From positions 3,534,001-3,598,000 of the forward strand of contig NZ_CP044232.1 of the NCBI RefSeq assembly GCF_008727775.1: DNA of 64,000 nt. Direction: 5' to 3'. The notes beneath the pieces were generated by a model, which worked only from the letters and a program-made list of their open reading frames with translations, was not told where the DNA came from and made no database searches. A program made the translations under genes and the position numbers. Positions 12,249 to 29,471 of the stretch are shown one piece after another. This stretch comes from Microbacterium lushaniae. GTDB taxonomy: Bacteria > Actinomycetota > Actinomycetes > Actinomycetales > Microbacteriaceae. The stretch's first letter is position 1. The number at the start of each line of letters is the position of its first letter.

Positions 12249-12322
12249 GGGGCTGTAGTTCAATGGCAGAACTTCTGCTTCCCAAGCAGATAGCGCGGGT
12301 TCGATTCCCGTCAGCCCCTCCA
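12249..12322 (+). tRNA. tRNA-Gly (anticodon CCC)
   Basis: The cloverleaf folds fully. The acceptor is GGGGCTG with CAGCCCC, the D stem GTTC/GAAC, the anticodon stem TCTGC/GCAGA with loop TTCCCAA (anticodon CCC at 12281-12283), and the T arm has GGTTCGATTCC. The discriminator is T (12319), as usual for tRNA-Gly, followed by an encoded CCA. A TATGCT box upstream could be the -10. It marks the left edge of the accessory island; I found no copy of its 3' end further right. The 264 bases after it hold no gene I can support. Confidence 0.96.
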
Positions 12323-12932: not shown

Positions 12933-15900
12933 CTAGAGTCCGTGGACGGCCCGGAACATCCCTCGCTCGTCACGCTCGATCCGCCCGGTGTCGAGTCCCC
13001 GCTGTAGGCCCGCAGCCAGACGCGCTGAGACGCCCTCTGTAAGGCGCTTGCCACCAAATAGCGCCAGCGCCTGTCGCTTGAGCTCATCCTCGCTCATACC
13101 GCCACCCAACTCGGCCACCACAGCCATCGCGTTCGCGATCTCCACGAGAGGCACATGGTCCAGGTTTCGCCCGTCGCCCGGCTGGCTGCGGCGGACATCG
13201 CGCCAAGCGAGCGGATCAATACCCGCTGGCCAAGCGCACCACTGATCAGAGAGGCGCACATACTCGGGAGGCAGGCATCGAAGGATCGCCTCTGCACGTG
13301 CTGGGGCGAGGCGATTCAAGCCGAAGGATTCCGCCGCAAGGCGGGCGAGCCGCGTCTTGTGGATGGGCCCCTCCTTCTGAATGATCTCCCCCAGGACAGA
13401 GCGCACCTGGTCTGCGGCGACTGCGCCCGGCAAGCGGTCGAGTGTCTCCTTGGTCCCGAATCGCTTGGGTTCCCACTCGGTGTATTGGCGCAGGCGAGGA
13501 TGCCGGAGTACGGCTCCTGTGGGCCCACTTGCGACCTGAGTGGGCTTCGCGCGGAGCGTCATCGGATCCTCTGCATGCGCCGGGATGGAAGACTCTGCCG
13601 GGCGAATCACTGTGGACGACGCGGGAGTGGGCGCCGCAGTCTTCGCCCTTCTCAGAGTTGCGCCCGCGTTCACCACGGCGGTCGTCAGACGCGCGAGCGT
13701 TTCGTCCCGCTGTTGGAGCCACTCCGGGAGCCACACCCGTTCGACGCCGGGCCACTTCATGAGTCCCTTCAACACCTCGACGGGGAGCCCGTCCCGGTCT
13801 GCGACGGTGCGGCGCGCACGCCAGCTCTCACCGTCGAGAAGGACCGCGACAAGAGGCTGATCAGGCTCGGCCGCGTCGGCGATCGAGATGTCGACCCGGA
13901 ACTCCGACAGCCCGATATCGGTTTGAACCGCGAACCCCCGGTAGCGCAGTTCGTCGGCGATCTCGTCTCGATGACGGTCGATCAGGCGTTCTCGATGTGC
14001 GCTGTCCGTTGTCGATTCGACGCCGGATCCGGCGAGCTCCAGGTATCCCTTCAGGTGTTTGATTCCGACAGACGCCGTCTCTTCGGCACGCAGCTCGGAC
14101 GGGTCGAAGCTTGCGAACAGGATCACTTGGCGGCGGGCACGGGTGATCGCGACGTTGAGTCGCCGTTCTCCGCCGGCGCGGGACAGCGGCCCGAAGTTGA
14201 GCGGGATGATGCCCCGGTCGTTCGCGCTGAAGGCGACGGAGAACAGAATCGTGTCACGTTCATCGCCCTGCACGTTCTCGAGGTTCTTCACGAAGAGGCC
14301 GTCTCTTTCATCGAGCGCCTGTGCGATCCTGGCGTCCGGCGCCTCTCGGAGGAGGGTCTCGATCAGCGCGCGCTGTTGAGCGTTGAAGGTGATGATTCCG
14401 AGTGATGGCGTCTCATCCTTAGACGCGTTGAAACGCTGCGCGACTTCCCGAACGATCGCTTCAGCCTCAGCGCGGTTTGTCCGAAGTTCCTTCCCTCGCC
14501 CGGAACGGTTGAACCGCCCGTCGACTCGAACGAGGGAAATCCCGTGGTCAGTGTTGCCAGCGGATCCAGTCACAGGCCACGGCGCGGGGAACGATGAGAG
14601 CCGACTGTCGTAGTACGCATGGTTGCTGAAGGTGATGAGCGCCTCGTCCTGGCTGCGGTAATGCCACGACAGCCACTGACGCGGGACGCGTGCCTGCACG
14701 CACTCGGTCAGAATTGACTCCTCGTCTGCAACAGTGTCGGCGACGGAAGAAGCATCGGCATCGATGTCGCCGCTCGCCTCGGCGAAGCTGGAGGGCGGCA
14801 TCTGCTTGCTGTCCCCGACGACCACGACCGATGCCCCGCGGCCCATCGCCCCCACCGCATCCGCCACTCGGATCTGGGAGGCTTCATCGAAGACGACGAT
14901 GTCGAACATCTTCGCCTTCGCGGGGAAGAAACGGGCCACCGATTCGGGGCTCATGAGGACACAAGGCGCGATCTGCGTGATGAGGTCGCCATAGTGCTTG
15001 AAGAGCGAGCGGACGCTCATGCCGCCGCGTTGCCGGGCTAGCTGGCGCTTCAGCTCACCCATCATTCCGCCCTCGTAGGCGGGGTCGATCCGACGCCTCG
15101 CCATGATCTCGGCTGGAATCCACTTGGGCAGAGCATTGCGGATGGCTGCAGCACTCGACGTGAACCGGTCGATGGATCGGTTATGAGCGTGAACGTCGAA
15201 AGCGGCCATCGCCTGCGAGTCTGCGCGTTCCGCAATGGAGGCCAGAGCGATGCCCTTGTCGAATGCGAGCGTGGCGAGATCCGCGGGGACCGCGCCCGTG
15301 AGGAGCGCGGCATGGGCGTCCGACAAACCGAAGCGAAGCAGGGGTTCAAGATTACGTTGGAAAGCGATCCACCGGTCGAGGGAGACCGGCTCCGTCGTCA
15401 CGAGATTGCGGGCGCCTGCGGTGACTCGCCACGCTTCGAAGAACGGCTTGTCACCGGCCCAAGCGGAGAAGACCCCCGCACCATCGGCCAGGGAATCCGC
15501 GATGCCACTCGTACCCGCGAGAGCGCGCCATGCCGTCGCCAGCCGGCCGAGTGCTGCTGCGAGGTCTGGATCAGCGGGAGTCCCCGAGTAGTACCTGCGG
15601 AGCGCAGATCGAAGCTCGGCGCTATCCCCGCCTGCCGCCAGCTGAGAGCCCAGCCACGCAGCCCACTCGAGAGTGGTCTTCGCATGCTCAATACCCTCGC
15701 GAAGGTACGGGTTCCATTGGGGCGAAACCAGTGGGAGCGGAAGTGCGGACAGCGCGGAGCGGAGCGAGTCGACCTCGTCTGCGGCCCGGACGACCTCGGC
15801 TGTCAGCGGTGTCACCTCGCGGGCGGGGAAGCTCCGGGCGTCGGTTCGCAGCGCCGGGCCGAACCCGGCGAGCGCCGCGCGCTGCCGCTTGCGGCGACCG

Positions 15901-18900
15901 AAGAACCCCGAAGCGTCGGCTGCGACCGCCGATTGATACACCGCACGGACATCCCCATCGAGCGCTTCGGGTCCTACCGATGCGAACCAAGTGCGCTCGA
16001 CGTTGCTCGCGTTGAGCCGTCCCTGCAGGGCGGTGATCTCTCCAGCCGTGTTGCGGGCGTGGACATCGTCGATGGCGTCGAGCGGGTACCGCGGCGCCTT
16101 CGCCAGTGAAGCCCAGCGATCGAGATGAGCCGGTGTCGATGCGTGGGTCAGCAGCTCCATATCAGCTTGACGAGCAAGGACGTCGGAGAGGGCAGCGTCG
16201 AACTCACGCGCGGCGGAGTGGAGCGCCTTTGTATCGATCGGGTTGACCGCCGTCGCCGTCACGAAGCCCCACGGATGCAGCGGAGCGGGGTGAGCGAGAT
16301 CTGCCGTCTCGGGAAGCGTGCGCAGGGTGTCACGCAGGCTTTCGAATTGCTCTTCAGACGTTGCCGCGACGAGCGTCGCGGGGATCGCTAGCGCCTCGAT
16401 ACCTCCGGCCGACGCGAGCAGTTGCGCACGCGCGGAGTACATCGAGAGGCCAGCGGCATTAGGTTCGTGCAGTCGCTGGGCGTAGCGCTTGAGCGATCCG
16501 CGACTGGTCGCCGCTGTCTCCCTGTCTGCTTTGAGTGCGGCTCCATCCGGTCGGGCGACGGCATCGATCGCGGCGCGGATCTGAGCCCGCATGGCCGCGG
16601 GCCGTGCCCCCTTGTCGTGCAGGTCGAGCGAGAAGGGGCCGAGCCCCACCGCGTCCAGCCTGCTCTTGACGACGTCGAGGGCCGCCCGCTTCTCAGCGAC
16701 GAACAGCACGCGCTTGCCGTTCGCGAGGGAATGCGCCAGCAAGTTGGTGATCGTCTGCGATTTCCCGGTTCCTGGCGGCCCCTCGAGAACGAACGTGCGG
16801 CCCGCTTCAGCCTCGGCAACCGCTTGCAGCTGCGACGAATCCGCCGGTACGGGGACGGCGTTGCTGAGCGCGTCGAGATCGACGTCGGGCTGCTCCGGAA
16901 CAGGATCGACGAACTCGGCGGTCGGGGTTTGGATGAGGTGGTTGACGAGAGGGTTGCCAGCGAACTCCGTCCAGTTCTCGTCGAGGTCTTTCCAGAGTCG
17001 ATACTTCGCGAACTGCAGGATCGAGAGATCCACCGTGTCTTCGACCGTGAATGAGAGCCGGGCGGCCGCGAGCGCCTGCCGCGTCGCGGCGAACGCTGCG
17101 GGGAGGTCGATTCCCGACTCGTCCTTCGCCGGGTTCGCGAGGCCCGGGATGATGAGCCCGAAGCTCAACCGGAGTTTCTCAAGGAGACAGTAGTTCGGGG
17201 TGGATTCCCCTGCTTCGTCAACTCTGAGACGGAAGGTCTTGCCACCGCCGACCGACTCGAGGGTCACCGGGATGAGCACGAGCGGGGAGCGGAGTTCGCG
17301 GTCGTTGAACGTCCAGCGGAGCATCCCGAACGCCAGATACAGGTTGTTGGCGCCGGTTTCCTCAACGATCGTCCGCGCCTTGTACGCGAGCGCGCGCAGT
17401 CTGGGGACGTAGGTCGCTTCTGTAACCCCGACGAAGACCTGCTTCCGTTCGGCGAGCATCCCTGCGCGCGCAGTCTCCGGAAGGTCCTGCCCGTATCGGA
17501 TGCCGCGACTGCCGTCGACCGTGGGGATGCGATCGTTGGGCACGAGCGTGACCGCGGTGCCGTTGTTGACCATGTCTTCGAACGCGGCCAGCGACGGCTG
17601 CGGGACGGCGACGGGGTAACCGGACTTGTCGCCGTAGTTGATGAGCCTGTTCCGCAAGCTGAGGTCGAGAAGCGCGTTCTTCCACTGTGCAACGCGAGGG
17701 GGTACGTCTCGTGCCACGCCGCCCGCTATCGCGTCGGCTGATGGGGTGTAGTGCAGCGCTGCCGGCGTCGGCGCGATGGCATACTCGACCACCTGCACGT
17801 CACCGGCCTCACCCACCACCCGGCTCGGCAGCGGGTAGATGCGGGCCAAGCGCGCCTGCTTGACGTCGGTGATCCCGAGCACTGCTGAAGCGTCGCCAGC
17901 GAGCGTCGTCGTGTGGTGATGGCGCCGGGCGTCCGCAAAGGGCTTCGAGGTCGCTCCCCCGGTCAAGAACGTCGTCTCGACGACTTCGATCTGGCCGATG
18001 CCAACGTAGTTGACTGCTTCTGCAGCATCCATCTGAGCAGGCCCGTCAAGGCTCGCGTCGTCTCGCCAGTATCCGAGGAAGATGTGCCCGGAGGTCAACC
18101 ACAGCGTCGAGTTGATTCCGGCTTCTTCGAGCGCCGCCGCAAGCGTGACAGTCGTGTCGAGACAGGTACCGAGACGGCCCTCGAGAACCTCAGCGGGGGT
18201 GCGCACCTTCTGCCCCTCGAGTCCCCAGCTGGCGGGAGGCTCCGCGTAACGGATGTCTCGAGCCCGCATGCTTTCGTAGATGGCCTCGACGATCGCGTCC
18301 ACCCGCTCGCGGGAGACCTGCTGGTAACCGTCGAGATCCGGGTTCCCCGTCTTCGCCTGCAGCAGGTCGGATGCTTGGACCAGGAGCGGCGCGATGGCGG
18401 GCGAGTTCGGCTGCACGAAGGAGGCGAGCAGCTCGACACCGAGCTGCGGCGGGTTGGCACGCCACTGGTTGGCGGCGAGGACTTCCACCTCCGCGTCCTG
18501 GTACGTGATGACGGCACCCGCTGCATCACGAAGGGTCACCCGAACGACCCCCTGCGTCGGATGTTCCACGGTGAGCATGCGTGCGGGATCGAGCACGAGA
18601 TCGGCATTCCGTAGCGTGACCGGTCGTGTCCCGTCGAGATCGACGATGACCACCTTCGGGTCGCCAAGTGATCCAAGCCTGCAGATCGCTTCGACCTCGA
18701 CCGAGGCTCCGCGCATCTCCTCGCCCCGATAGTCGATCGTTACTTCGTCGACGATCGCGATCGAGTTGCGGGCGTGTGCGTAGCTGAGGATAGGCAGTGA
18801 GCTCACTGAGATGTGCGCGGTCGCGCGGGGAACCATCGGAATAAGCTCCGCGAAAACCGGGGGGTCGACGTCTGACTTCGATGCGTGGGCGTCCTCGCCT

Positions 18901-19415
18901 GAGCCCCGAACGTCGCCGGTCGTCGCCTCGACTTGGCTCTGTTGGCCCCCGAAGGAGACTCGGCTCTCGGCTGCCATGGCAGCGATGACCGCCGTCTTGA
19001 GCTCGTCCATCCGGCCGGCCGGCTCACCAGCTTGGAGCGCGCGCAGGAGAATCTCCGCACAGTCGAGTGCGCGATAGGTTTCAGCGGTCGAGAACTCCTC
19101 GTTGTGCGCCCGCTTGTTCCGCACATTGCGAAGTTCGCTCGCACAGTTTTGGGCCTGCCGGTTGAGGAGGCTTGCAAACGGGTACCCGATGGAGCCGAAC
19201 GATTCGGTGAACGCCCGAAGGATCAACGAAAGGTCCCTGGGGTTGTAGCGGGCGTATGCACGTCCGGCCTGGTTGTCCTTGTGTCGGATGATGTCTGTCC
19301 AGTCCGCGACCGAGGGCGCGAGCTCGTGGAACCGCGAAGCAACGTGCGGCTCCAGCCCATCGCTCAGGATGATGAGCGCCTTCTCGATCTGCGCTCGTGC
19401 ATCAAATGCGGACAT
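12933..19415 (-). CDS. Giant HEPN-DUF4011-SF1 helicase-nuclease defence protein
   Basis: This 2160-residue protein has five recognisable parts. First is an N-terminal Swt1-like HEPN domain (about 1-125) with the RNase motif R-x4-H at Arg99-His104. Second is the DUF4011 block at about 575 (VAQWKNALLDLSLRNRLINY). Third is an SF1/Dna2-like helicase with Walker A GPPGTGKS (about 880), Walker B VVFDEASQI (about 1505), SWHYRSQDE (about 1585) and NVAITRARR (about 1750). Fourth is a restriction-endonuclease-like domain of the MTES_1575 type (about 1805-1900, FRVDISIADA). Fifth is a C-terminal DUF3320 block (about 1990 on). Proteins of this design are found in defence islands as single-gene systems; the name Hhe has been used in defence-system catalogues, from memory. 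GAGGAG precedes the ATG. It is the last gene of the hsd operon. Confidence 0.88.
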   Translation of the reverse strand: MSAFDARAQIEKALIILSDGLEPHVASRFHELAPSVADWTDIIRHKDNQAGRAYARYNPRDLSLILRAFTESFGSIGYPFASLLNRQAQNCASELRNVRNKRAHNEEFSTAETYRALDCAEILLRALQAGEPAGRMDELKTAVIAAMAAESRVSFGGQQSQVEATTGDVRGSGEDAHASKSDVDPPVFAELIPMVPRATAHISVSSLPILSYAHARNSIAIVDEVTIDYRGEEMRGASVEVEAICRLGSLGDPKVVIVDLDGTRPVTLRNADLVLDPARMLTVEHPTQGVVRVTLRDAAGAVITYQDAEVEVLAANQWRANPPQLGVELLASFVQPNSPAIAPLLVQASDLLQAKTGNPDLDGYQQVSRERVDAIVEAIYESMRARDIRYAEPPASWGLEGQKVRTPAEVLEGRLGTCLDTTVTLAAALEEAGINSTLWLTSGHIFLGYWRDDASLDGPAQMDAAEAVNYVGIGQIEVVETTFLTGGATSKPFADARRHHHTTTLAGDASAVLGITDVKQARLARIYPLPSRVVGEAGDVQVVEYAIAPTPAALHYTPSADAIAGGVARDVPPRVAQWKNALLDLSLRNRLINYGDKSGYPVAVPQPSLAAFEDMVNNGTAVTLVPNDRIPTVDGSRGIRYGQDLPETARAGMLAERKQVFVGVTEATYVPRLRALAYKARTIVEETGANNLYLAFGMLRWTFNDRELRSPLVLIPVTLESVGGGKTFRLRVDEAGESTPNYCLLEKLRLSFGLIIPGLANPAKDESGIDLPAAFAATRQALAAARLSFTVEDTVDLSILQFAKYRLWKDLDENWTEFAGNPLVNHLIQTPTAEFVDPVPEQPDVDLDALSNAVPVPADSSQLQAVAEAEAGRTFVLEGPPGTGKSQTITNLLAHSLANGKRVLFVAEKRAALDVVKSRLDAVGLGPFSLDLHDKGARPAAMRAQIRAAIDAVARPDGAALKADRETAATSRGSLKRYAQRLHEPNAAGLSMYSARAQLLASAGGIEALAIPATLVAATSEEQFESLRDTLRTLPETADLAHPAPLHPWGFVTATAVNPIDTKALHSAAREFDAALSDVLARQADMELLTHASTPAHLDRWASLAKAPRYPLDAIDDVHARNTAGEITALQGRLNASNVERTWFASVGPEALDGDVRAVYQSAVAADASGFFGRRKRQRAALAGFGPALRTDARSFPAREVTPLTAEVVRAADEVDSLRSALSALPLPLVSPQWNPYLREGIEHAKTTLEWAAWLGSQLAAGGDSAELRSALRRYYSGTPADPDLAAALGRLATAWRALAGTSGIADSLADGAGVFSAWAGDKPFFEAWRVTAGARNLVTTEPVSLDRWIAFQRNLEPLLRFGLSDAHAALLTGAVPADLATLAFDKGIALASIAERADSQAMAAFDVHAHNRSIDRFTSSAAAIRNALPKWIPAEIMARRRIDPAYEGGMMGELKRQLARQRGGMSVRSLFKHYGDLITQIAPCVLMSPESVARFFPAKAKMFDIVVFDEASQIRVADAVGAMGRGASVVVVGDSKQMPPSSFAEASGDIDADASSVADTVADEESILTECVQARVPRQWLSWHYRSQDEALITFSNHAYYDSRLSSFPAPWPVTGSAGNTDHGISLVRVDGRFNRSGRGKELRTNRAEAEAIVREVAQRFNASKDETPSLGIITFNAQQRALIETLLREAPDARIAQALDERDGLFVKNLENVQGDERDTILFSVAFSANDRGIIPLNFGPLSRAGGERRLNVAITRARRQVILFASFDPSELRAEETASVGIKHLKGYLELAGSGVESTTDSAHRERLIDRHRDEIADELRYRGFAVQTDIGLSEFRVDISIADAAEPDQPLVAVLLDGESWRARRTVADRDGLPVEVLKGLMKWPGVERVWLPEWLQQRDETLARLTTAVVNAGATLRRAKTAAPTPASSTVIRPAESSIPAHAEDPMTLRAKPTQVASGPTGAVLRHPRLRQYTEWEPKRFGTKETLDRLPGAVAADQVRSVLGEIIQKEGPIHKTRLARLAAESFGLNRLAPARAEAILRCLPPEYVRLSDQWCAWPAGIDPLAWRDVRRSQPGDGRNLDHVPLVEIANAMAVVAELGGGMSEDELKRQALALFGGKRLTEGVSARLAAGLQRGLDTGRIERDERGMFRAVHGL

Positions 19416-19516
19416 CGCGCTCCTCGTTGAATCTATGCACAGCCATCCCCGGTCCCGGCCCCGCGGCCCAGCAGTCGCTGAACCGTCGTATTACCCTCGC
19501 TCCGCCCACCGACTGT

Positions 19517-21397
19517 CTAGCTCTTCGTGTTCTTCAGGTGACGACCGATGTAGCCGATGTAGATCTTGCCGGTGCGTGCTGTGTCATCGAAGTAATGCAT
19601 GCGTGGTGCGAACGAATCCCGCCACGTTGGCTTGAAGTGCGCGTCCATCAGCACCTTGCCAGTGTTCGATACCTCCTGCGGGACCGGAAGCACTCGCTCC
19701 GCACGCCACTCCGGGCGATTCAGCACGGAATCGCTTTCAGTGGGGGCATGTCGATCGGGCGGGCACTTATGCCCGTCGAGCGCGTCCGCTTTGAGATACG
19801 CATGCAGCCCGCTCGTGATCCTCCCATCGACCTTTCCTTCCGCATAGTCGTACAGGACATGGATGTAGTCCCAGAACGCATACGCGTACCGCGGGGTCTT
19901 CTCTCGCACGTCGATCTCCAGTGCCCTGTCGACATCTCCGGTGAACACGACGCGGGAAACCGCTAGGTGCGCCTCGTCTCCAGGCGTAATACGTGCGATG
20001 AGTTCCGCGATGTCGTATGGCGGGTTCCAGATCGACTCGACCGGCTCCACGTGCGTTTGTGTAGCCAGATCAGCCTCGACGAGGCGACGTCGGAGAATCT
20101 GCACTTCACGCTCGAGACTCCGAAGTTGCTCGTCCGAGACAGCGAGGTCGAACGAAAGCTCCTCGGCGCTGGACCGGAGCTCACGAAGCTCGGCGTCCTT
20201 CATCTCGATGTCGGCGATGGCACCGTCGATTTGCTCGGTGGCAACGGATAGCTCCGCTGCGGATGCTGTGAGCAGACTGTCTAGTCTCTCGACGGCCACC
20301 TCACTCACCTTTTCGGAGCCGATCCACCGCTTCAGCAGCGCCCTGAGCCGGGTCATCAACCCGGGCTCGATGGCTGCTTCCCGGTTTCGTTCCAGGGACG
20401 ATGGAACTTCGTCAAGAGTTGGCTCCGGCACCGACGACGGGGTCGGTTGGGCGATCCGCCGGCGGACTTCCTGAGCACGCTCACTGACGAGATCGGCGCG
20501 GGCCAGAATTTCGAGGGAGCGACGCACATCTGGGGGAAGGTCCCGCTGGATGAAGCGAAGGCGTGTCGATTCCGCGTGCCTGTTCACGAGCGGGGTCGCC
20601 ACGCGGGTCCCGTCGATGGCACGCGCCAATGTGGCGGGACCGAGCATCCGATGTCGGATCGAGTCCGCGGCCGAGTCGAGGTCCACTTGCGGCGCGAAGG
20701 TACGAACGACACCTCGCTCAACGCGATGTGACGGCGGTAGACGCATCGCTAGGAGCTCCGTCGCCTCTGGATCCATCACGAACGTGGTTGCCACTCCCAC
20801 GCTCTGCTTCGTCAGACTGGTGACGATCTGGCGCCAACGATCTAGATGCGCTCCATCCAGAGCCGGCGCGACGATGACGCTGGCGGTTCGTGCCGGATCC
20901 ACGATCGACTGCCACACTTCTTCGATGTCAGAGGAACGGATCACCAGGGGAACCCCGTATAGAGGGGTGTCCCCGTCCCTCGTGTTGGTGGTTTCGAGAA
21001 TCTGCCGCGCGAGCCGAGGCGTGTCCACCCTTGTGACTGCCGTTGGGGTGGGGACGTCGTCGACACCGGCTTCGATCACTAGCGACTGTGTATAGCGGCG
21101 CGCCTGCGGGGCTGAGATCGCATAGAGGGACACCGTCCAAACTCCATGCCGGTTCTGCTCGCGGAGACGATAGAGCCTCCTCCGACTCTGGTCGAGACTC
21201 TCCGCTGCATGCACGACCACAAGTTCTGAGCCACCACCGAGATCATGCACCCCCGGCCCATCCCAGTCGGCCAGCTCCGCCGCGCTGCTCCTGCGGTTCT
21301 TCTTCTCGCTGAGCCACGACCGAAGTTGTGATTCCGCGACCGCAACCGCGTCCTCATCTGGTGCCAGACACAGGATTGCGCGATATCCAATTGCCAC
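19517..21397 (-). CDS. Coiled-coil protein of unknown function in the hsd operon
   Basis: I do not recognise this 626-residue protein. The first 330 residues look like an alpha/beta domain (YGVPLVIRSSDIEEVW, SVIVAPALDG). Residues about 370-446 are a heptad-rich coiled coil (IADIEMKDAELRELRSSAEE, LRSLEREVQILRRRLVE). The last 170 residues form a compact domain that contains PRYAYAFWDYIHVLYDYAEGK and ends GYIGRHLKNTK. I start at the GTG at 21397, six bases after GGGGGA. It lies 38 bp after hsdR and 101 bp before the giant helicase gene, so it is probably co-expressed with both. A sensor or adaptor for one of them is a guess. Confidence 0.75.
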   Translation of the reverse strand: MAIGYRAILCLAPDEDAVAVAESQLRSWLSEKKNRRSSAAELADWDGPGVHDLGGGSELVVVHAAESLDQSRRRLYRLREQNRHGVWTVSLYAISAPQARRYTQSLVIEAGVDDVPTPTAVTRVDTPRLARQILETTNTRDGDTPLYGVPLVIRSSDIEEVWQSIVDPARTASVIVAPALDGAHLDRWRQIVTSLTKQSVGVATTFVMDPEATELLAMRLPPSHRVERGVVRTFAPQVDLDSAADSIRHRMLGPATLARAIDGTRVATPLVNRHAESTRLRFIQRDLPPDVRRSLEILARADLVSERAQEVRRRIAQPTPSSVPEPTLDEVPSSLERNREAAIEPGLMTRLRALLKRWIGSEKVSEVAVERLDSLLTASAAELSVATEQIDGAIADIEMKDAELRELRSSAEELSFDLAVSDEQLRSLEREVQILRRRLVEADLATQTHVEPVESIWNPPYDIAELIARITPGDEAHLAVSRVVFTGDVDRALEIDVREKTPRYAYAFWDYIHVLYDYAEGKVDGRITSGLHAYLKADALDGHKCPPDRHAPTESDSVLNRPEWRAERVLPVPQEVSNTGKVLMDAHFKPTWRDSFAPRMHYFDDTARTGKIYIGYIGRHLKNTKS

Positions 21398-21435
21398 TTC
21401 ACGTCCCCCAATGTGTCTGCAGGCGAGGGCCCCGC

Positions 21436-24400
21436 CTACCGCCCACGCTCGTCCGCGTAACGCGGCGCCATCGCTTCCATCTGTTCCATCACGAGCTTGA
21501 TCGCCTCTGGCTGCTTGTCGGGCGGGTACTTGTACTTCACGAGCAGCCGCTTGATCGACGACCGCAGCTTCGCCCGAACGTCGTCGCGCACGGTCCAGTC
21601 GGTGCGCACGTCGCGTCGCATCACGGCCACGAGCTCTCGCGCGATCTCCGCCAGCACGTCGTCGCCGTGCACGTCGACGGCCGACTCGTTCGCGGCGACG
21701 GCGTCGTAGAAGGCGAGCTCGTCGTTCGACAGCGGCGGCGAGAAGTGCGAACCGCGGGATGCCTCCGCGGCGACATCCTTGGCGAGTTCGACGAGCTCGG
21801 CGATGACCTCGGCCGAGGTGAGCTGCTGGTTCGTGTAGCGGTTCATGATCTCGGCGATCCGCTCCGAAAACGCCCGCTGGCGGACGATGTTCCCGTGCGT
21901 GACCGTAGAGCCGGCGTCGGCCAGCGACTTCCGCAGCGCCTCGATGGCGAGGTGCGGGTTGGGCGCCGACTGCGCCTTCGCGAGATACTCCGGCCCCAAG
22001 TCGTCGAGGGCGAGACGCGGCAGGCCGGCCGCCTCGTAGATGTCGAGCACATCCCCCGGCGCGATCGAATCGGCGACCAGGGAGCTCAGCAGCCGCGAGA
22101 TCTCCTCGGGGATCGGCTCGTCCCGCGCCTGCCGATCGGCGGCGTCGTACTTCGCCATCCACACGCGCACTTCTTCGTAGAAGGCGATCTCGTCGTGCAG
22201 CTCCGCGAGTCCGTCACGGCCGGATGCCAGGGCCCACGCCCGCGCCAGCCGCGCGGCCGCCGACCGGAACCGCGACGAGAGTCGCTCCGGCCCGAGCTCT
22301 TCAGCATTGAGCGGGTTCGTTGGCTTGCGCAGGAAGTCCGTCGTCTGGGTGGCCGCGTCCCGCCACGCGCGGGAGCCGCCCTTCGCAGCGGTCGCCCGCC
22401 AGTCGCAGTCGGCGAGCATCTCGCGGATCTGCGCCACGAGTTCCGTGGCGATGGCGACCGCCTCATCGACGTCCCGACCCACCGGCATGTTCGCCTGGTC
22501 CGTGGCCGTGTACTCGGAGAGGGCCTGAGCGAGGTTGTCGGCGAGCGGCGCGTACGCCACAAGCAGGCCGTCCTGCTTGCCGCGGAACGTCCGGTTCACG
22601 CGCGCCAGCGTCTGCATGAGCAACGCGCCCTTCAGCGGCCGATCGAGGTAGAGCGTGTGCAGGGGCGGCGCGTCGAACCCGGTGAGCATCATGTCCTTGA
22701 CGATCACCAGTTCGAGCTTGTCATCGGCATCCTTCAGCCGCGCCTTGATGGCCTTGTTCTCCGAGTTGCGGCGCACGTGGTCGCTCACCGGCGGCTGGTC
22801 GGTCGCCGATCCGGAGTAGACGACCTTGACCCGTCCGGCATCCAGTGCGTCGGAGTGCCAGTCGGGGCGGAGCGCGATGATCGCGTCGTAGAGCCGCGCG
22901 CAGATCTCGCGGGTGCCGCCCACGATGAGCGCCTTGCCCGGCGACTGCACGAACTCCTTCATGCGCTCGCGGCGTTCCTCCCAGTGCCGCACCAGATCGG
23001 CGGCGAGCGCCTCGATGCGCTCCGGTGCGCCGTAGACCGCGTTCACAACGGCGACGGAGGCCTCCAGCCGCGCCCGCTCGGTGTCGTCGAGGCCGACTGT
23101 GACCTCGTCGGCGACGCGGTCGATGTCCTCCTGCGCCACCCCGTCGGCGAACGACACCTTGATGAGCCGCGGCTCGAAGTACACCGGGACGGTCGCCCCG
23201 TCCTCGACGGCGCGGCTGAGGTCGTAGATGTCGATGTAATCGCCGAAGACGGCGCGGGTGTCGCGCTCGGCGAACGAGATCGGCGTGCCCGTGAAGGCGA
23301 TGAGCGTCGCGTTCGGCAGCGCGTCGCGCAGGTGTCGCGCGTAGCCGTCGAGATCGTCGTAGTGACTGCGGTGCGCCTCGTCGACGACGACGATCACGTT
23401 GCGGCGGTCGGTGAGGAGCGGATGCTGCCTGCCGGCCAGCTTCTCGGACTCGGTCAGGCCGAACTTCTGCAGCGTGGTGAAGTAGATGCCGCCCGTGATG
23501 CGATTGCTCAGCTCGTCACGCAACTGGGCGCGCTCGCGCACCTGCACGGGCTTCTCCGCGAGCAGCAGACTCTGGTCGAAGGTCTGGAACAGCTGCCCGT
23601 CGAGCTCGGTGCGGTCGGTGACGACGATGACCGTGGGGTTCTTGAGCTTCGGATGCCGCGACACGAGGTTCGTGTACAGCTCCATCTCCATGGACTTGCC
23701 CGACCCCTGCGTGTGCCACACGACGCCGGCCTTGCCGTTGGTCTCGACCGCCTGCACCGTCGAGCCGACGGCCTTCGTGACGGCAAAGTACTGGTGCGGC
23801 TTGGCGATCCGCTTGGTGAGCCCGTCGGCACTCTCGTCGAACGCGGTGAAGTTGCGGGCGAGCTGGAGGAAGCGCTCCTGGTTGTAAAGGCCGTTGAGCG
23901 CGTCGTCGATGGGCTGGACCGATGCGCCATCCTCGAAGCGCGGTTGCGCGAGGGGCGCACCGTCGTCGTCGACGTTCCACGGGGCGAAGTGGTTCAGCGG
24001 GGTGAACGGCGTCCCGTACTTGGCATCCAGGCCGTCGCTCGCGAGCGTGAGCACGCAGAACCGGAACGCCATCGCGAACTCGCGCAGGTAGGTCTGCAGC
24101 TGCGCGTGGGCAGGGGCGACCCCGGTGGATGCCGACCCCGCACGCTTCAGCTCGAGGATGCTCAGCGGCATCCCGTTGACGAACAGCACGATGTCGAACC
24201 GCCGGTGCAGGTCGCCCCGGCGGAGGGTCACCTGGTTCACGGCGAGCCAGTCGTTCTCGGCGGGATCAGTGCTCAGCACACGCAGGCGCGGGCTGTGCTC
24301 CACGCCCTCGGCATCGAGGTAGCTCATCGGGTATCCGCCGACGAGGTACTGATGGATGCGGTGGTTCTCGGTGATCGCGTCCTGCGAGGTGGGCGAGGCG

Positions 24401-24618
24401 ATCTCGGCCGCCGCCTGTTGCAGGTAGTGCGCCGGGACGCCCGGGTTCAGTCGGCGCAGCGCGTCGAGCAGGCGAGGACGGATGAGGAGGTCGTCCCAGG
24501 TATCGCGCTCACCGGTGCCCGGTGCGATGTCCTCACCACGCAGCGGCCGCCAGTCGAGCGGCTCGGCGAGGAGGTCGAGCGCATCCTGCTCCCAATCGGC
24601 CTCGGTCAGGGTGCTCAC
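21436..24618 (-). CDS. hsdR: Type I restriction enzyme, HsdR subunit
   Basis: The 1060-residue motor/nuclease subunit. Near the N terminus is the PD-(D/E)xK nuclease (FDIVLFVNG, Asp142; LELK, Glu156 and Lys158). The SF2 translocase follows, with TQGSGKS (303-309), VVVDEAHRSHY (DEAH 413-416) and FTGTPI. A helical C-terminal region binds the methylase core. It would cleave unmodified DNA after translocation, but only as part of HsdR2M2S1. The GTG start overlaps the GTPase stop (GTGA) and has GGAGG upstream. Since hsdM is truncated here, the enzyme is probably not functional unless another HsdM supplies the core. Confidence 0.95.
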   Translation of the reverse strand: MSTLTEADWEQDALDLLAEPLDWRPLRGEDIAPGTGERDTWDDLLIRPRLLDALRRLNPGVPAHYLQQAAAEIASPTSQDAITENHRIHQYLVGGYPMSYLDAEGVEHSPRLRVLSTDPAENDWLAVNQVTLRRGDLHRRFDIVLFVNGMPLSILELKRAGSASTGVAPAHAQLQTYLREFAMAFRFCVLTLASDGLDAKYGTPFTPLNHFAPWNVDDDGAPLAQPRFEDGASVQPIDDALNGLYNQERFLQLARNFTAFDESADGLTKRIAKPHQYFAVTKAVGSTVQAVETNGKAGVVWHTQGSGKSMEMELYTNLVSRHPKLKNPTVIVVTDRTELDGQLFQTFDQSLLLAEKPVQVRERAQLRDELSNRITGGIYFTTLQKFGLTESEKLAGRQHPLLTDRRNVIVVVDEAHRSHYDDLDGYARHLRDALPNATLIAFTGTPISFAERDTRAVFGDYIDIYDLSRAVEDGATVPVYFEPRLIKVSFADGVAQEDIDRVADEVTVGLDDTERARLEASVAVVNAVYGAPERIEALAADLVRHWEERRERMKEFVQSPGKALIVGGTREICARLYDAIIALRPDWHSDALDAGRVKVVYSGSATDQPPVSDHVRRNSENKAIKARLKDADDKLELVIVKDMMLTGFDAPPLHTLYLDRPLKGALLMQTLARVNRTFRGKQDGLLVAYAPLADNLAQALSEYTATDQANMPVGRDVDEAVAIATELVAQIREMLADCDWRATAAKGGSRAWRDAATQTTDFLRKPTNPLNAEELGPERLSSRFRSAAARLARAWALASGRDGLAELHDEIAFYEEVRVWMAKYDAADRQARDEPIPEEISRLLSSLVADSIAPGDVLDIYEAAGLPRLALDDLGPEYLAKAQSAPNPHLAIEALRKSLADAGSTVTHGNIVRQRAFSERIAEIMNRYTNQQLTSAEVIAELVELAKDVAAEASRGSHFSPPLSNDELAFYDAVAANESAVDVHGDDVLAEIARELVAVMRRDVRTDWTVRDDVRAKLRSSIKRLLVKYKYPPDKQPEAIKLVMEQMEAMAPRYADERGR

Positions 24619-25805
24619 CGACCGCCTCCCGCGCCACCGGCGGCCTTTTCGATCGTCATCTTGCGGATGATGTCGAGGAATCCAGGAGCGTAATCGCCCC
24701 ACGATTCGGACACCTTGGCGATATCGAGCTTGCCCGTGTGCACCTGCTCGCAGAGACGCATCCAGCCTTCGCCCGTCGCCACGGTCAGCGCAAAGGCGAC
24801 GGAGGCTCCGATGACGCTGCCGGCGCCCGGGATGAACTTGAAGGCGCTCCTGGCCAGGGCCTGCCCGGTGAACTGCACGCCCAGCTGAGCAATGGCCCCC
24901 GCCGACATCATCGTCTTCATCTCCAGGTCGTAGATCGCGGCGATCCGGCCCATCATTCCGAGCTGGATCGGCGCGAGCGCCACGGCGTCCGCCACCGGAA
25001 TCGGAACCGCGGCTGCAGCAGCTGCGGCCGTCGCGGCTGCTGTGATGACGGGTCGGGCGAGCTCCCGCTTCCAGGGGAGGTTGAGGCGCTGCGCGATGCG
25101 AAAGGCATCCTGATCGTTCTCGGGCGACAGGGCGAGGGTCTCCGCAACGAGCTCACCGAGTCCATGCCCCTTGCCTTTCCCATGCCGATCCGTGGTGGAG
25201 GTCAGGATGACCCGCTCATACGGGATGGCGAGCGGCTCTCCACGCTCGTCGACCGGCTGTTCGAGCCACTCGACGAACTCCTTCAGGGCGTGCGCAACGT
25301 CGCGCTTTCCCGTGATGGGGTTCTTCGTCCAGTCAACCTTGGTGAGCACGAGGACCACGGGCAGACCCTGCGCATCGAGTTCGCGGATCATGTCGATCTC
25401 GGGCTGCTGCAGCCTTGCCGAGGAGGCGTTGACGCAGTACCACACGACTGAGATCTGCTCGTTCGCGGGTCTTTCCGAGATGATCTTCAGGTGGCCGCGC
25501 AGCTGTACCGCGGGCGACAGCTTCGACCCGATCTCGAAGCCTTCGACGTCCCAGATGCCGAGGGACTCATCGTGGTAGTACTGCACCCCACGGGTGACCG
25601 GCAGCCCGGTGCCGACCTTCGCCCAATCGCGGCCGAACACCGCGTTCACAAGGGAGGACTTGCCCACCCCGGAGCTGCCGATGATGGCGAGGTTGAAGCG
25701 TCCGTAGCGCGACTTCGCCTCAGCGCGGGCGTCTAGGAAGGGTTTCTCGTCGAGCGGGGGTGTCGGGGTGCTCTCGGTGGGCTTGGCTGTCGGTTCGGTG
25801 GTCAT
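24615..25805 (-). CDS. Dynamin/IRG-like GTPase with DUF697-like membrane region
   Basis: A 396-residue P-loop GTPase: G1 GSSGVGKS (43-50), G3 DVEG (86-89), G4 TKVD (155-158). After the G domain comes an Ala-rich hydrophobic stretch (VPIPVADAVALAPIQLGMM, then FIPGAGSVIGASVAFALTV), as in DUF697/YcjF-type GTPases that touch membranes. It sits between the DUF4230 gene (27 bp gap) and hsdR (4-base overlap), inside the restriction operon, which is unusual. It may couple a membrane event to defence, or simply be operon cargo. GTP use is supported by motifs, the role is inferred. Confidence 0.85.
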   Translation of the reverse strand: MTTEPTAKPTESTPTPPLDEKPFLDARAEAKSRYGRFNLAIIGSSGVGKSSLVNAVFGRDWAKVGTGLPVTRGVQYYHDESLGIWDVEGFEIGSKLSPAVQLRGHLKIISERPANEQISVVWYCVNASSARLQQPEIDMIRELDAQGLPVVLVLTKVDWTKNPITGKRDVAHALKEFVEWLEQPVDERGEPLAIPYERVILTSTTDRHGKGKGHGLGELVAETLALSPENDQDAFRIAQRLNLPWKRELARPVITAAATAAAAAAAVPIPVADAVALAPIQLGMMGRIAAIYDLEMKTMMSAGAIAQLGVQFTGQALARSAFKFIPGAGSVIGASVAFALTVATGEGWMRLCEQVHTGKLDIAKVSESWGDYAPGFLDIIRKMTIEKAAGGAGGGR

Positions 25806-25832
25806 GGCTCTCTCGTTCCTCTGCAGTGAGGC

Positions 25833-26489
25833 TCAGTTGGCGGCGAACTCGAAGGTGAGCACGACGTCGGGGTCAATGCTGGAGACGATGCGCTCGTAGA
25901 ACGTCGTCGCCTGCACCTCGAGCAGCGGGCGGACGCCCTCAAGGTGCTCGGAGATGACCTCCTCGGTCAGGATCTCCTCGACGGCGGCGATGGTGTCGAT
26001 CTGCGGCGTCGTCCAGCTGAGGATCCCGTTGGACTCGGTCGCCACGCTGAACTCGGGGTTCTCGTAACCGAGGAAGACGAAGTCGGGGATCGACACGGTG
26101 TACTGCTTGTCGCCGGTCGGCTCGATCCGCACGTCCTGACCTTCGATGCCGAACTTCGCGTCGAAGTCGTACTGGATGAACATCTCCCGGTCACTGAAGG
26201 GGATGTCGAACCACCCGAAGAAGTCCTGGTTGTCGCGCTTCGTCTCGAGACCGGTTATGCCCGACGTGACGAGGATCACCTGCTCCTCCGTCGTCAGGGC
26301 TTTCGTGACCTGCACAGAACGTTGCTCTCCGGCGCCGAGGAACTTGCCGACGCTGACGCCGGCGAACCCGGCGCCCACAACGAGCAGGAAGAGTGCGCCC
26401 ACCAGCAATGCCTTCGCCCAGATGGGCGTCCGCCGCGCCGGGCGCGGAGAACGTGTCGTCGCCGGTGCGCGCGCAGTGGTCGCGGTCAT
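25833..26489 (-). CDS. DUF4230-like membrane-anchored protein
   Basis: About 218 residues. A basic Pro/Arg-rich cytoplasmic tail is followed by one transmembrane helix (AKALLVGALFLLVVGAGFAG, about 29-48), then an outside domain that resembles DUF4230 (TEEQVILVTSGITGLETK; then alternating beta strands and a C-terminal FYERIVSSIDPDVVLTFEF). The function of DUF4230 proteins is unknown. I start at the ATG at 26489, nine bases after a G run; an ATG at 26498 is possible. It lies between hsdS and the GTPase gene, so the membrane protein and GTPase may work together. Confidence 0.75.
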   Translation of the reverse strand: MTATTARAPATTRSPRPARRTPIWAKALLVGALFLLVVGAGFAGVSVGKFLGAGEQRSVQVTKALTTEEQVILVTSGITGLETKRDNQDFFGWFDIPFSDREMFIQYDFDAKFGIEGQDVRIEPTGDKQYTVSIPDFVFLGYENPEFSVATESNGILSWTTPQIDTIAAVEEILTEEVISEHLEGVRPLLEVQATTFYERIVSSIDPDVVLTFEFAAN

Positions 26490-26549
26490 ACTCTTCATCC
26501 CCCCGGATGCTGCGTCGGTGCAGCCATGTGAATCTATCCCGCCAGGTGC

Positions 26550-27707
26550 TCAGAGCCCGGCATCGACCGCGATCCGCTCCGCGTCGCGCACCCGGAGCTT
26601 CCCTGACATGAGTTGCGGCAGCAGCGCGTCGCGCGTCTCGGCGAGGGTCAGCGACTCCCGCTCCGCTCCGAGCGCGCGCGCCCAGAGTCCGTTCATCAGC
26701 GCATCGACGCGCTGCACCTCAGAGGCAACGGGTACCGCGACAACCTCGTCCAGATGGTGGCGTTGAATGTGTCCCATCGTCGTCGCCTTGTCCGCCGCAA
26801 TCGCTTTGAAGTCGGCGAGCTTGTGCCGGAGCAGCTCGTAGACGAGCCACGTGGGGAACCCCTCACGCGGAATGACCTTGAAGATGTGCTGATTCACGAT
26901 TGCCTCTCCTCGGAACCACCGGTGAAGCGTCAACGAGCCGGACCACGCAAAGAGGATGTCACCGGGACGCGCAACGTGTTTGTCGTCGACGATCGCATCC
27001 GAATAGACCGTCGATCCGCTGATTCCTCCGTTGAGCTCAGCAATTCGAACGACTACGCGCCCTGACCCGCTTGCACCCTTGGTGAACGCCTTCCCGTTCA
27101 CAAACTCCGCAGTAGTCGAAAGGGGCGCTGCGCTCGCCTTGGCAAGCCCGCGGAAAGTGAGGTGCATGATCGCATCGAGCTGTGAAATGAGGGCGGTGTT
27201 GGCGGCGATCTTGTCGTCGAGGGCGCCCAGCACCTCGGCGATCGCCTGCTGCTCCTGGAGCGATGACGCTGGAAGAGTGAGGCGTTTCAGATCCGCGAGA
27301 TTGAGAGTTGGCTGGACCGTCGTGTTGAGCAGCGAGTTAATCTGCCGACGCGCAGGCTGGGAGTTGAGCGCGTAATGCAACCATCTCGCATCGACGCCAA
27401 TGGGCCGAAGTACCGCCACAGCGCGCGCTACGTTCCAGCCCGCGAGTGACTTCGGGACCAGCGCGGTCTCGCCGACCGAACCCACCAGCGTAAAGAGCAA
27501 CTCTCCCCCAACGAGCACTGTTCGATCGTGCCGAGCGGAGACCTCTGGCGCCACCCGCAGTGGCCGGCTTGTGTCGATGCGCCCCTCCCGGACGTCTCCC
27601 GCCCGGACGATTGGTACTCCGTCGTTTTGATGGGCTCCGGGCTGGACGATTCCGTATGAGACCTGGCCGTCCGCCACGAGGTCTTCAAGCCAGCTCACGG
27701 CAGTCAC
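26550..27707 (-). CDS. hsdS: Type I restriction system specificity subunit HsdS
   Basis: 385 residues with the two-target-domain plan of HsdS. TRD1 is followed by the first conserved helix ([38 protein letters not shown]), then TRD2 and a second spacer helix at the end ([21 protein letters not shown]). The two domains would read the two halves of a split DNA target; the target cannot be told from sequence. The GTG start overlaps the hsdM stop (GTGA), with GGAGG upstream. The gene is intact although hsdM is not. Confidence 0.93.
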
Positions 27708-28752
27708 TCGACCCTCCCCAGCTGCTCGCGCACGACGTCCGCCAGCCGCGCGGACTCGGCGAACTGCGCCTCGAGCTCGGCGCGCAGGCGCGCGAGCTTC
27801 TCCTCGATCGGCTCGCCGTCGTCCTCGACCTCCGGCGCGCCGACGTAGCGGCCAGGGGTCAGGGCATAATCCGCGGCCTTGATCTCGGAAAGGGGCGCGG
27901 AGTAGCAGAAGCCCGGAACGTCCGCGTACTCCACGGGTGCGGCATCCGATTCGACACCGCGCCAGGCGTGGAACGTGCCGGCGATCCTGGCGATGTCCTC
28001 GTCGCTGAGCGCACGCTCCGCGCGGTCGACCATGTGCCCGAGGTTGCGGGCGTCGATGAACAGCACCTCGCCGGCGCGCTTGCCCTTGTCCTTCGCGAAG
28101 AACCACACGCACACCGGGATGCCCGTCGACCGGAAGAGCTGCGTCGGCAGCGCGACCATGCACGAGACGAGGTCGGCCTCGACGATCTCGGCGCGGATCC
28201 TGCCCTCACCGCCGGAGTTCGACGACATCGAGCCGTTCGCCATGACCACACCCGCCTGCCCGCCGGGCGCGAGCTTGGAGAGGATGTGCTGGATCCAGGC
28301 GTAGTTTGCGTTGTTCGCCGGCGGCACGCCGAACCGCCAGCGGGGGTCGTCCTCGTTGCGCGCCCAGTCCTTGATGTTGAACGGCGGGTTCGCCATCACG
28401 AAGTCGGCCTGCACGTCCGGGTGCAGGTCGCGGGCGAACGTGTCGCCCCACCGCGGGCCGAGGTTGCCCGTCAGCCCGTGGATGGCAAGGTTCATCTTCG
28501 CCATCCGCCAGGTGCGCTCGTTGAGCTCCTGCCCGAAGACCGAGATGTCGCTGCCCTCACCGTGGTGGGCGTCGATGAACTTCTCCGCCTGCACGAACAT
28601 GCCGCCCGACCCGCACGCCGGGTCGTACACCCGACCCCGCGTCGGCTGCAGGACCTCGACGAGCACCCGCACCACACCGGCGGGCGTGTAGAACTCACCG
28701 CCCCGCTTGCCCTCTGCTGCGGCGAACTTCTCCAGGAAGTACTCGTACACCG
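27704..28752 (-). pseudogene. hsdM: hsdM, type I methylase, 5' end lost at transposon junction
   Basis: The remaining 349 or so codons encode the catalytic half of an N6-adenine methylase: [12 protein letters not shown] motif [10 protein letters not shown] and catalytic NPPF, then the C-terminal helices. Family members have a further 140-170 N-terminal residues (helical domain ending [11 protein letters not shown]). Here homology begins at VYEYFLEKF, and the upstream bases belong to the tnsA region. No N-terminal fragment is visible elsewhere in the window. The frame stays open to 28783, so a short protein may be made, but without the N domain it should not form a working methylase. Confidence 0.85.
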
Positions 28753-28763
28753 CAACCTGGACG

Positions 28764-29471
28764 ATGCACGGCACGTCCTCCACCGCCCCGCTGGACTCCC
28801 AGCTCCTGGGTCAGTCCCTGTATACGGCTGACGCGATTCGTGTCGGGAAGGCCTACCCGCGCCAGCGGAACTACCACGGCTATTACTGGATGGCCTCGAC
28901 CGGGTCCCACGTCTGGCACGAGTCGCTGCTCGAACGGGACTCCCTGACCTGGCTGGACCACACCGGGGACATTGTGGCCGTGGCCGCGCAGCCGATGATG
29001 CTCACCGCGTCCGACGGGACGCGGCATTACCCAGACTTCCTCGCGCTCGACGCCAGCGGGGTCCAGACGATGTACGACGTGAAGCCCGCCGCTCGCATCA
29101 ACGAGAGCGCAAAGGCGCAGTTCGAGTGGACCCGCCACGTCTGTGAGGCAGTCGGCTGGAACTACAAAGTACTGACCGAACGACCAGACCAGGAGCGAGT
29201 CAACCTCGCCTGGCTGGCGCTGTTCCGACAGACCCCGAACCACCCGGGCATCGAGGCCGAGGAGGAGGTCCTCCAAGCAGCCGCACCGGGCTGGACGATT
29301 CAAGACGCCGTCGACCACATGCCGGCCGCCTCTACCCCCGCCGCCCGCAGCCGGGTCTTCCACCTGCTGTGGACACGGTCGCTCCTCGTCGACCTCGGCA
29401 TCCACCTCCGCCCGTCGACCCCTGTCCAGGTCAACCCGAGCCGGAAGGGGAACGTTGATGGCATCGCATGA
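28764..29471 (+). CDS. tnsA: TnsA-like transposase endonuclease
   Basis: The 235-residue protein has the TnsA nuclease layout: [21 protein letters not shown] (two parts; Glu57), then RHYPDFLAL (Asp91) and MYDVKPA (Asp105, Lys107). In Tn7, TnsA cuts the 5' ends of the transposon while TnsB cuts the 3' ends, giving cut-and-paste movement. I begin at ATG 28764, only about 12 bases from the end of hsdM homology and with no good ribosome-binding site, so its native 5' region may be gone. It overlaps tnsB by 14 bases. Confidence 0.85.

Follow-up and report, generated by a model that had tools for sequence, protein, structure and literature searches.

The stretch analysed here (hereafter the window; 64,000 nucleotides of the Microbacterium lushaniae contig NZ_CP044232.1) is part of a single-contig genome of 3.65 Mb and carries, at 12933-28750, a tightly packed run of seven minus-strand genes around a type I restriction system, which lies beside a tRNA-Gly(CCC) gene within a stretch of lower G+C content (Table 1). 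A sequence-only reading had described this run as hsdM, hsdS, a DUF4230 membrane protein, a GTPase, hsdR, a coiled-coil protein and a giant HEPN-helicase-nuclease protein with small gaps or overlaps. The order and the spacing were borne out, as were, in profile searches, the family labels of hsdM, hsdS, the GTPase, hsdR and the giant. The gaps amount to 5 bp between hsdM and hsdS, 51 bp between hsdS and the DUF4230 gene if the latter starts at 26498 (147 bp with a start at 26402), 27 bp between the DUF4230 and GTPase genes, 38 bp between hsdR and the coiled-coil gene, and 101 bp between the coiled-coil gene and the giant; the GTPase gene and hsdR overlap by 4 bp. Promoter- and terminator-like sites show no excess over chance and thus speak neither for nor against co-transcription.

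Table 1. Features of the restriction locus and its flanks in the window (positions in window coordinates).
Feature	Position	Strand	Basis and remarks
tRNA-Gly(CCC)	12249..12322	+	ARAGORN; chromosomal landmark, island edge
Giant, 2160 aa	12933..19415	-	HEPN_Swt1, DUF4011, SF1-type helicase (AAA_11/12), MTES_1575 nuclease, DUF3320 (Pfam); NCBIfam 'anti-phage protein ProA'
Coiled-coil protein, 626 aa, HEC-07-like	19517..21397	-	PADLOC; AlphaFold model
hsdR, 1060 aa	21436..24618	-	Pfam HSDR_N, SWI2_SNF2, T1RH-like_C
GTPase, 396 aa	24615..25805	-	Pfam MMR_HSR1 and DUF697; two hydrophobic stretches
DUF4230-type protein, 221 aa, one predicted transmembrane stretch	25833..26498	-	Alternative start 26402
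hsdS, ~382 aa	26550..27698	-	Pfam Methylase_S, two stretches
hsdM, C-terminal 348 residues only	27704..28750	-	Pfam N6_Mtase; tblastn boundary 28750
Putative deletion junction	28749..28751	.	hsdM and tnsA similarity meet, ~3-base overlap
Tn7-like tnsA, 5' end lost	28764-29471	+	TnsA-like Pfam 24.6 vs cut-off 26.5, just below
Tn7-like tnsB	29458-31311	+	rve Pfam 26.1 vs cut-off 32.6, just below
Tn7-like tnsC/TniB	31321-32421	+	TniB Pfam above cut-off
Gene with DUF4379 zinc fingers	32418-34412	+	DUF4379 Pfam above cut-off

HsdR is complete, with its nuclease motif (PD-ExK, D142..E..K) and translocase motifs (GSGKS at 305, DEAH at 413) intact, and HsdS has two target-recognition domains, seen as two Methylase_S stretches. 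The motifs of the GTPase (G1 at 43, G3 at 86, G4 at 155) and of the giant (Rx4H at 99, Walker A at 879, DEAS at 1507) are likewise intact. Hydrophobic stretches are found at residues 253-271 and 324-342 of the GTPase, and one strongly hydrophobic N-terminal stretch at residues 30-48 of the DUF4230-type protein. The DUF4230 label could be kept on the basis of homology, but not of a direct Pfam assignment: the protein gives no Pfam match at E<=0.1 and does not itself reach the gathering cut-off of PF14014, yet it aligns over 202 residues (BLASTP E=2.6e-27) with a protein of the Lactococcus plasmid pIL6 (L250) that passes this cut-off (28.6 versus 27), which makes it a homologue of an accepted family member. 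The AlphaFold model of its soluble domain has a mean predicted local distance difference test score (pLDDT) of 74.7, and fold searches with Foldseek and VIA-align, in which the TULIP lipid-binding fold was considered, gave weak, mixed matches only. The coiled-coil gene is real, but the 881-residue open reading frame first proposed for it overlaps hsdR, and the gene itself encodes 626 residues. Its model has a mean pLDDT of 84.8 with a helix at 366-441, and the fold search returned weak, mostly thioredoxin-like matches (best E=0.037), from which no function was assigned.

The hsdM gene had been called broken, which understates the damage. Similarity to intact hsdM relatives ends at 28750 in tblastn comparisons, and similarity to tnsA sets in at 28749 for two of three close relatives (L233-L235) and at 28737, probably by chance, for the third. 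Judged by the starts of these relatives, tnsA similarity begins about 10-12 residues inside the gene. The first ~185 hsdM codons, about the first third of the gene, were not found in the genome, nor was any other piece of hsdM, and neither was gene X, which lies upstream of hsdM in relatives, in a search that had no positive control; HsdM is complete in the related locus L188 of M. caowuchunii. The boundary is interpreted as the trace of a deletion that fused hsdM with the interior of tnsA. A clean transposon insertion into hsdM was considered and rejected, since the 5' end of tnsA is lost and neither gene X nor the missing part of hsdM turned up in the genome. An HsdM that lacks its N-terminal part is unlikely to form a working methylase-specificity complex, and therefore type I restriction is probably dead in this strain. 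The product of the window's tnsB shares 56-58% identity with its nearest counterpart among the genomes sampled from the genus.

The arrangement recurs in full in M. caowuchunii (genome G548, locus L188), where X, hsdM, hsdS, the DUF4230 gene, the GTPase gene, hsdR, the coiled-coil gene and the giant follow each other on one strand with similar gaps. Amino-acid identity between the two loci is 87-97% for the shared genes except hsdS (37%), and the ratio of nonsynonymous to synonymous substitution (dN/dS) is 0.07-0.13 except for hsdS (0.66); that a second species keeps the order and strand, with all genes but hsdS under constraint, indicates that the run is more than a chance association. The M. 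caowuchunii set adjoins the same tRNA-Gly(CCC) (8275-8348 in L208), so that it is most simply explained by shared ancestry and was probably inherited rather than assembled independently. Synonymous divergence, in a comparison that includes 21436-28750, is 0.25-0.33 for hsdM and the GTPase and DUF4230 genes and 0.50-0.67 for hsdR, the coiled-coil gene and the giant, and this unevenness around a replaced hsdS suggests that the block has been patched by recombination. Partial sets, in which X, hsdM and hsdS are followed at intervals by DUF4230 and a partner, hsdR and the giant, occur in L191 and L193, where the partner is a 437-residue protein, and in L138 with a GTPase; no tRNA-Gly is present in the stretches read there. 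Recurrence of the ordered set in unrelated genomes, which the sequence-only reading had named as the support for a real system, was thus found only in part: the complete set was encountered once more, at the same tRNA site and probably by inheritance, and partial sets elsewhere.

Of 278 HsdR loci found, 80 were kept, and 73 of these have hsdM upstream. The gap between hsdS and hsdR is shorter than 400 bp in 36 of the 73 and at least 400 bp in 37, and called genes lie within it in 34. On this comparison of gene orders, the type I core carries a variable slot for extra genes between hsdS and hsdR. The slot holds DUF4230 in 12 loci, a GTPase in seven, and in 11 loci members of one cluster, some of them fragments, from which two were profiled and proved to be YhcG/DUF1016 nucleases; further contents are HipA (two loci), Fic, SLFN-AlbA and AAA/STAND proteins, only representatives of the occupants having been profiled. 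Gene X stands upstream of hsdM in 70 of the 73 loci (for example L188:11772-13793, minus strand) and possibly encodes a fourth subunit or a regulator of this lineage. Its product has about 650 residues and, by eye, a helix-turn-helix-like N-terminus. In the copies scanned, no family of Pfam, NCBIfam or PADLOC exceeds its cut-off, and likeness to HsdS (hhalign probability 5.7%, p=0.0067) or HsdM (0.2%) is not claimed.

Among 295 genomes of the genus, DUF4230 gives 34 matches in 33 genomes and HsdR of the window's type is present in 36; the two occur together in 21 genomes (Fisher p=1.5e-14, a value that ignores relatedness). In 18 of the 34 matches DUF4230 is encoded 1.2-3.7 kb upstream of hsdR and in the same orientation, and in G607 a contig end may separate one more such pair. 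Of the 35 DUF4230 proteins placed in a tree, 21 are restriction-linked and 14 are not; each copy was labelled by the gene that accompanies it, which is a GTPase in 15 and the 437-residue family in 16, four others being uncounted. The partner label changes eight times, at least seven of these changes being forced by well-supported branches, and on this tree the module has switched location and partner many times. The 437-residue family (for example L089:8691-10004, plus strand), an alternative DUF4230 partner, shows no Pfam match above cut-off, no PADLOC or NCBIfam match, and no relation to the GTPase. As a separate observation, four genomes of the genus (L025, L027, L028, L030) carry a lone gene for a close GTPase relative (66-70% identity), with another neighbour that is PdxH-like by eye.

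The window DUF4230 protein matched nine plasmid records and the Lactococcus copy 13; no phage record was matched by the latter. In three of seven Lactococcus records hsdS lies directly upstream of DUF4230 on the same strand: pIL6 has the order R-M-S-DUF4230-PIN-like, pSD96_06 has R-M-S followed, across the start of the circular record, by DUF4230 and a dynamin-family gene, and pLLE01E has S-DUF4230-SpoIIM with no other hsd gene listed. With 25% and 32% identity to their window counterparts, HsdR and HsdM of pSD96_06 represent a distinct restriction lineage, and the order hsdS-DUF4230 on these plasmids means that the link crosses phyla. Three Enterococcus records, read out of four (LR962816.1 was left out), share one arrangement, in which DUF4230 lies near an AlwI type II system with IS30 between.

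The giant matches NCBIfam NF058533, anti-phage protein ProA, with 1767.8 bits (cut-off 1500) over positions 1-1903 of the 1903 in the model, and PADLOC PDC-S37 at 1.2e-273. By these profiles it belongs to a family already named, and the module that it forms with the coiled-coil protein is not new; neither a paper on ProA nor its working mode was found in the literature searched. The first 560 residues of the giant match in 19 of the 295 genomes at E<=1e-20, and nine of these 19 have HsdR (p=8.6e-5). Among the ten strongest matches (E<=1e-140, a cut-off chosen after the list was seen) eight have HsdR (p=9e-7); both values again ignore relatedness. In these eight the giant lies within 2.1 kb of hsdR in four (the window, G548, G438 and G619), 13-15 kb away in two (G515, G554) and far away in two (G560, G568). 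It is kept beside decayed hsd remnants in L189, L190 and the window. The remnant in L189 (15516-16151) is an hsdM-hsdR fusion followed by the coiled-coil gene and the giant, and that in L190 (17183-17980) is an hsdR with an internal deletion, which immediately precedes the giant. Elsewhere, L195:1912-5033 (minus strand) carries a 437-residue partner, a gene with weak HEC-05/SspE-type matches (DUF262-like by eye) and a ProA giant, with no hsd matches. A DUF4011 gene is also described, in PMC10250203, as flanking a Pseudomonas aeruginosa defence hotspot. The coiled-coil family comprises 35 proteins including the window's own, and of the 396 genomes that represent the order 30 have a match; the 881-residue frame matches PADLOC HEC-07 (5.2e-14) and NsnC (6.2e-10), and the L188 copy matches the same families. 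Within 20 contexts fetched, the gene stands beside a full-length giant in two (L068, convergent, and L086) and a relative of it beside an HmaC protein in one (L078), and hsdM or hsdR matches lie within ~8 kb in four, namely L070, with an hsdR of 59% identity and the coiled-coil gene in the opposite orientation, and, with weaker hsd matches, L075, L083 and L087.

Taken together, we tentatively prefer, at somewhat below even chances, to regard the locus as three stacked, separately evolving defence modules with a second layer resembling PrrC in the slot. The first module would be the type I core X-hsdM-hsdS-hsdR, with the hsdS-hsdR gap as the slot. The second would pair the DUF4230 protein, held by a single N-terminal helix as its anchor, with a probably membrane-associated GTPase, and the third would consist of the coiled-coil protein and the ProA giant, probably an autonomous HEPN/helicase/nuclease. 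With DUF4230 constant beside hsdS and its partner changing, an anchor or sensor plus an exchangeable effector is the simplest functional reading of the second module. DUF4230, as the constant part, might sense, or be restrained by, either membrane stress or the HsdM-HsdS complex; upon a block of restriction or the entry of phage DNA, the variable partner (DUF697 GTPase, dynamin, PIN-like or 437-residue protein) would then disable the membrane or the cell. The gene arrangement itself, its recurrence, the exchange of partners and the loss of X and part of hsdM are observed; sensing, trigger, membrane damage and any coupling between the modules are what we infer from these arrangements. In the window strain the first module is probably dead, the third is intact, and the second is intact but may be uncoupled. 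The broader proposition, possible though rather doubtful, is that a membrane sensor of type I restriction is to be found among the DUF4230 proteins: a constant anchor beside hsdS that would, in two phyla, drive an exchangeable killer when restriction fails. If true, it would define a class of modular guards in addition to PrrC and PARIS.

Almost as likely as a PrrC-like layer, and held just as tentatively, is an uncoupled hitchhiker: the DUF4230-partner pair would be an autonomous anti-phage or membrane-stress unit that uses restriction operons as a place to land and be expressed, functionally uncoupled from HsdMSR, and the coiled-coil-ProA pair would behave likewise. Several findings weigh on this side and against coupling. 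Fourteen of the 35 DUF4230 rows, with 12-20 kb read, show no match to hsd genes of the window's lineage, which means that the pair does not need that restriction system, and ten of these solo copies keep the GTPase or the 437-residue partner directly after DUF4230 (L023, L024, L211-L216, L220, L221). Among the other solo copies, neither usual partner adjoins in L218, L219 and L222, and in L217 the 437-residue gene precedes DUF4230. The restriction/solo label needs 11 changes on the tree, at least nine of them forced by well-supported branches, compared with a shuffled mean of 11.2, so that linked and solo copies do not cluster and give no sign of specialisation to restriction. This failure to cluster is the strongest result against a coupled layer and fits an uncoupled hitchhiker nearly as well. 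The slot moreover takes many unrelated genes, some of them without defence-like character, such as dehydrogenase, ABC-transporter and 5'-nucleotidase genes. In the stretches read, no hsd gene neighbours DUF4230 in four of the seven Lactococcus records or in the one of two Paenarthrobacter records covered, where DUF4230 adjoins an EcsC-family gene on the other strand. The retention of ProA beside the decayed hsd genes of L189 and L190 suits the hitchhiker as well, and outside defence altogether DUF4230 is placed beside ribosome-biogenesis genes in Streptococcus mutans (SMU_1803c), according to PMC13041782. What the hitchhiker explains less readily is that DUF4230 directly follows hsdS in two phyla with differing gene order and partners, and that the 18 genus copies noted above sit just upstream of hsdR of a single restriction lineage.

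Coupling of another kind would make the pair a helper rather than a toxin, a tether that brings the restriction complex to the membrane near the site of DNA entry or controls HsdR. The position between hsdS and hsdR, the combination of a membrane anchor with a molecular switch, and purifying selection on the pair (dN/dS 0.07) are consistent with such a role, but the 36 relatives with a gap below 400 bp imply that restriction in this lineage does not need the pair, and the partner is swapped for PIN-like or unrelated proteins; a tether is improbable. Still further behind stands one obligate system of seven or eight genes acting in one complex, which the intact eight-gene order of M. caowuchunii and the tight gaps might favour. 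Each module occurs without the others, the giant for instance without adjacent hsdR in L192 and L194-L205 (for most of these the reading covered only the flank before the giant, and the contig of L196 is short), and the only other complete set found sits at the same chromosomal site. For the first of these reasons a single joint system was rejected as the lead explanation, and of the original description as one composite defence operon, composite is the part that holds. Mere clustering of defence genes at a tRNA-Gly hot spot, with no selected arrangement, is scarcely credible, since the tRNA-Gly landmark, the lower G+C island and one further restriction locus of this lineage by the same tRNA (L150) are outweighed by other loci that repeat the order, strand and spacing and by the distance distribution and Fisher association of DUF4230 with hsdR.

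The stacked-module reading draws its model from PrrC. The prrC gene is located between hsdS and hsdR, as are the extra genes here. In a review (PMC12707154), PrrC of EcoprrI is presented as an embedded gene that acts when type I restriction fails, and restriction loci coupled to suicide genes are cited as a general idea. The window shares with EcoprrI an extra gene embedded in a type I hsd locus, but has two such genes, a membrane anchor and a GTPase with the partner exchanged among relatives, and neither the DUF4230 protein nor the GTPase has a Pfam or PADLOC match to the anticodon-nuclease domain. A full-length match to LeoABC/bacterial dynamin was not seen, the LeoBC match (1.6e-10) covering model positions 69-186 of 601 only, and of the MADS set mad1-mad8 PADLOC gave mad2, mad3, mad5 and mad8 only, each weaker than another family for the protein concerned. 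For the giant, the closest known relatives are ProA/PDC-S37, which it matches over the full model, although about 210 residues including HEPN_Swt1 precede the matched part. Hhe, a HEPN-helicase-nuclease anti-phage protein, has the DUF4011-containing helicase-nuclease part in common with it, but at 561.6 bits against a cut-off of 2000 (NF042953) the giant is not a member. The coiled-coil protein resembles the PADLOC candidate HEC-07, a 'Hma-embedded candidate', but the window copy stands between hsdR and ProA, whereas a relative in L078 is beside HmaC. The nearest counterparts of the slot itself are pIL6 and pSD96_06, which likewise have hsdS followed by DUF4230 and, in pSD96_06, by a dynamin-family GTPase, but which differ in their R-M-S order and in an HsdR only 25% identical; the pSD96_06 dynamin has no significant similarity to the window GTPase (E=0.25). 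Type I loci with embedded genes are known. DUF4230 with a GTPase or dynamin beside hsdS, in Actinomycetota and on Lactococcus plasmids, offers a small, concrete and testable candidate for a genuine partner among such genes, one that natural plasmids already carry in a host convenient for laboratory work, and composite operons of this kind could be read as stacked modules, each judged by its gain, loss and decay in relatives.

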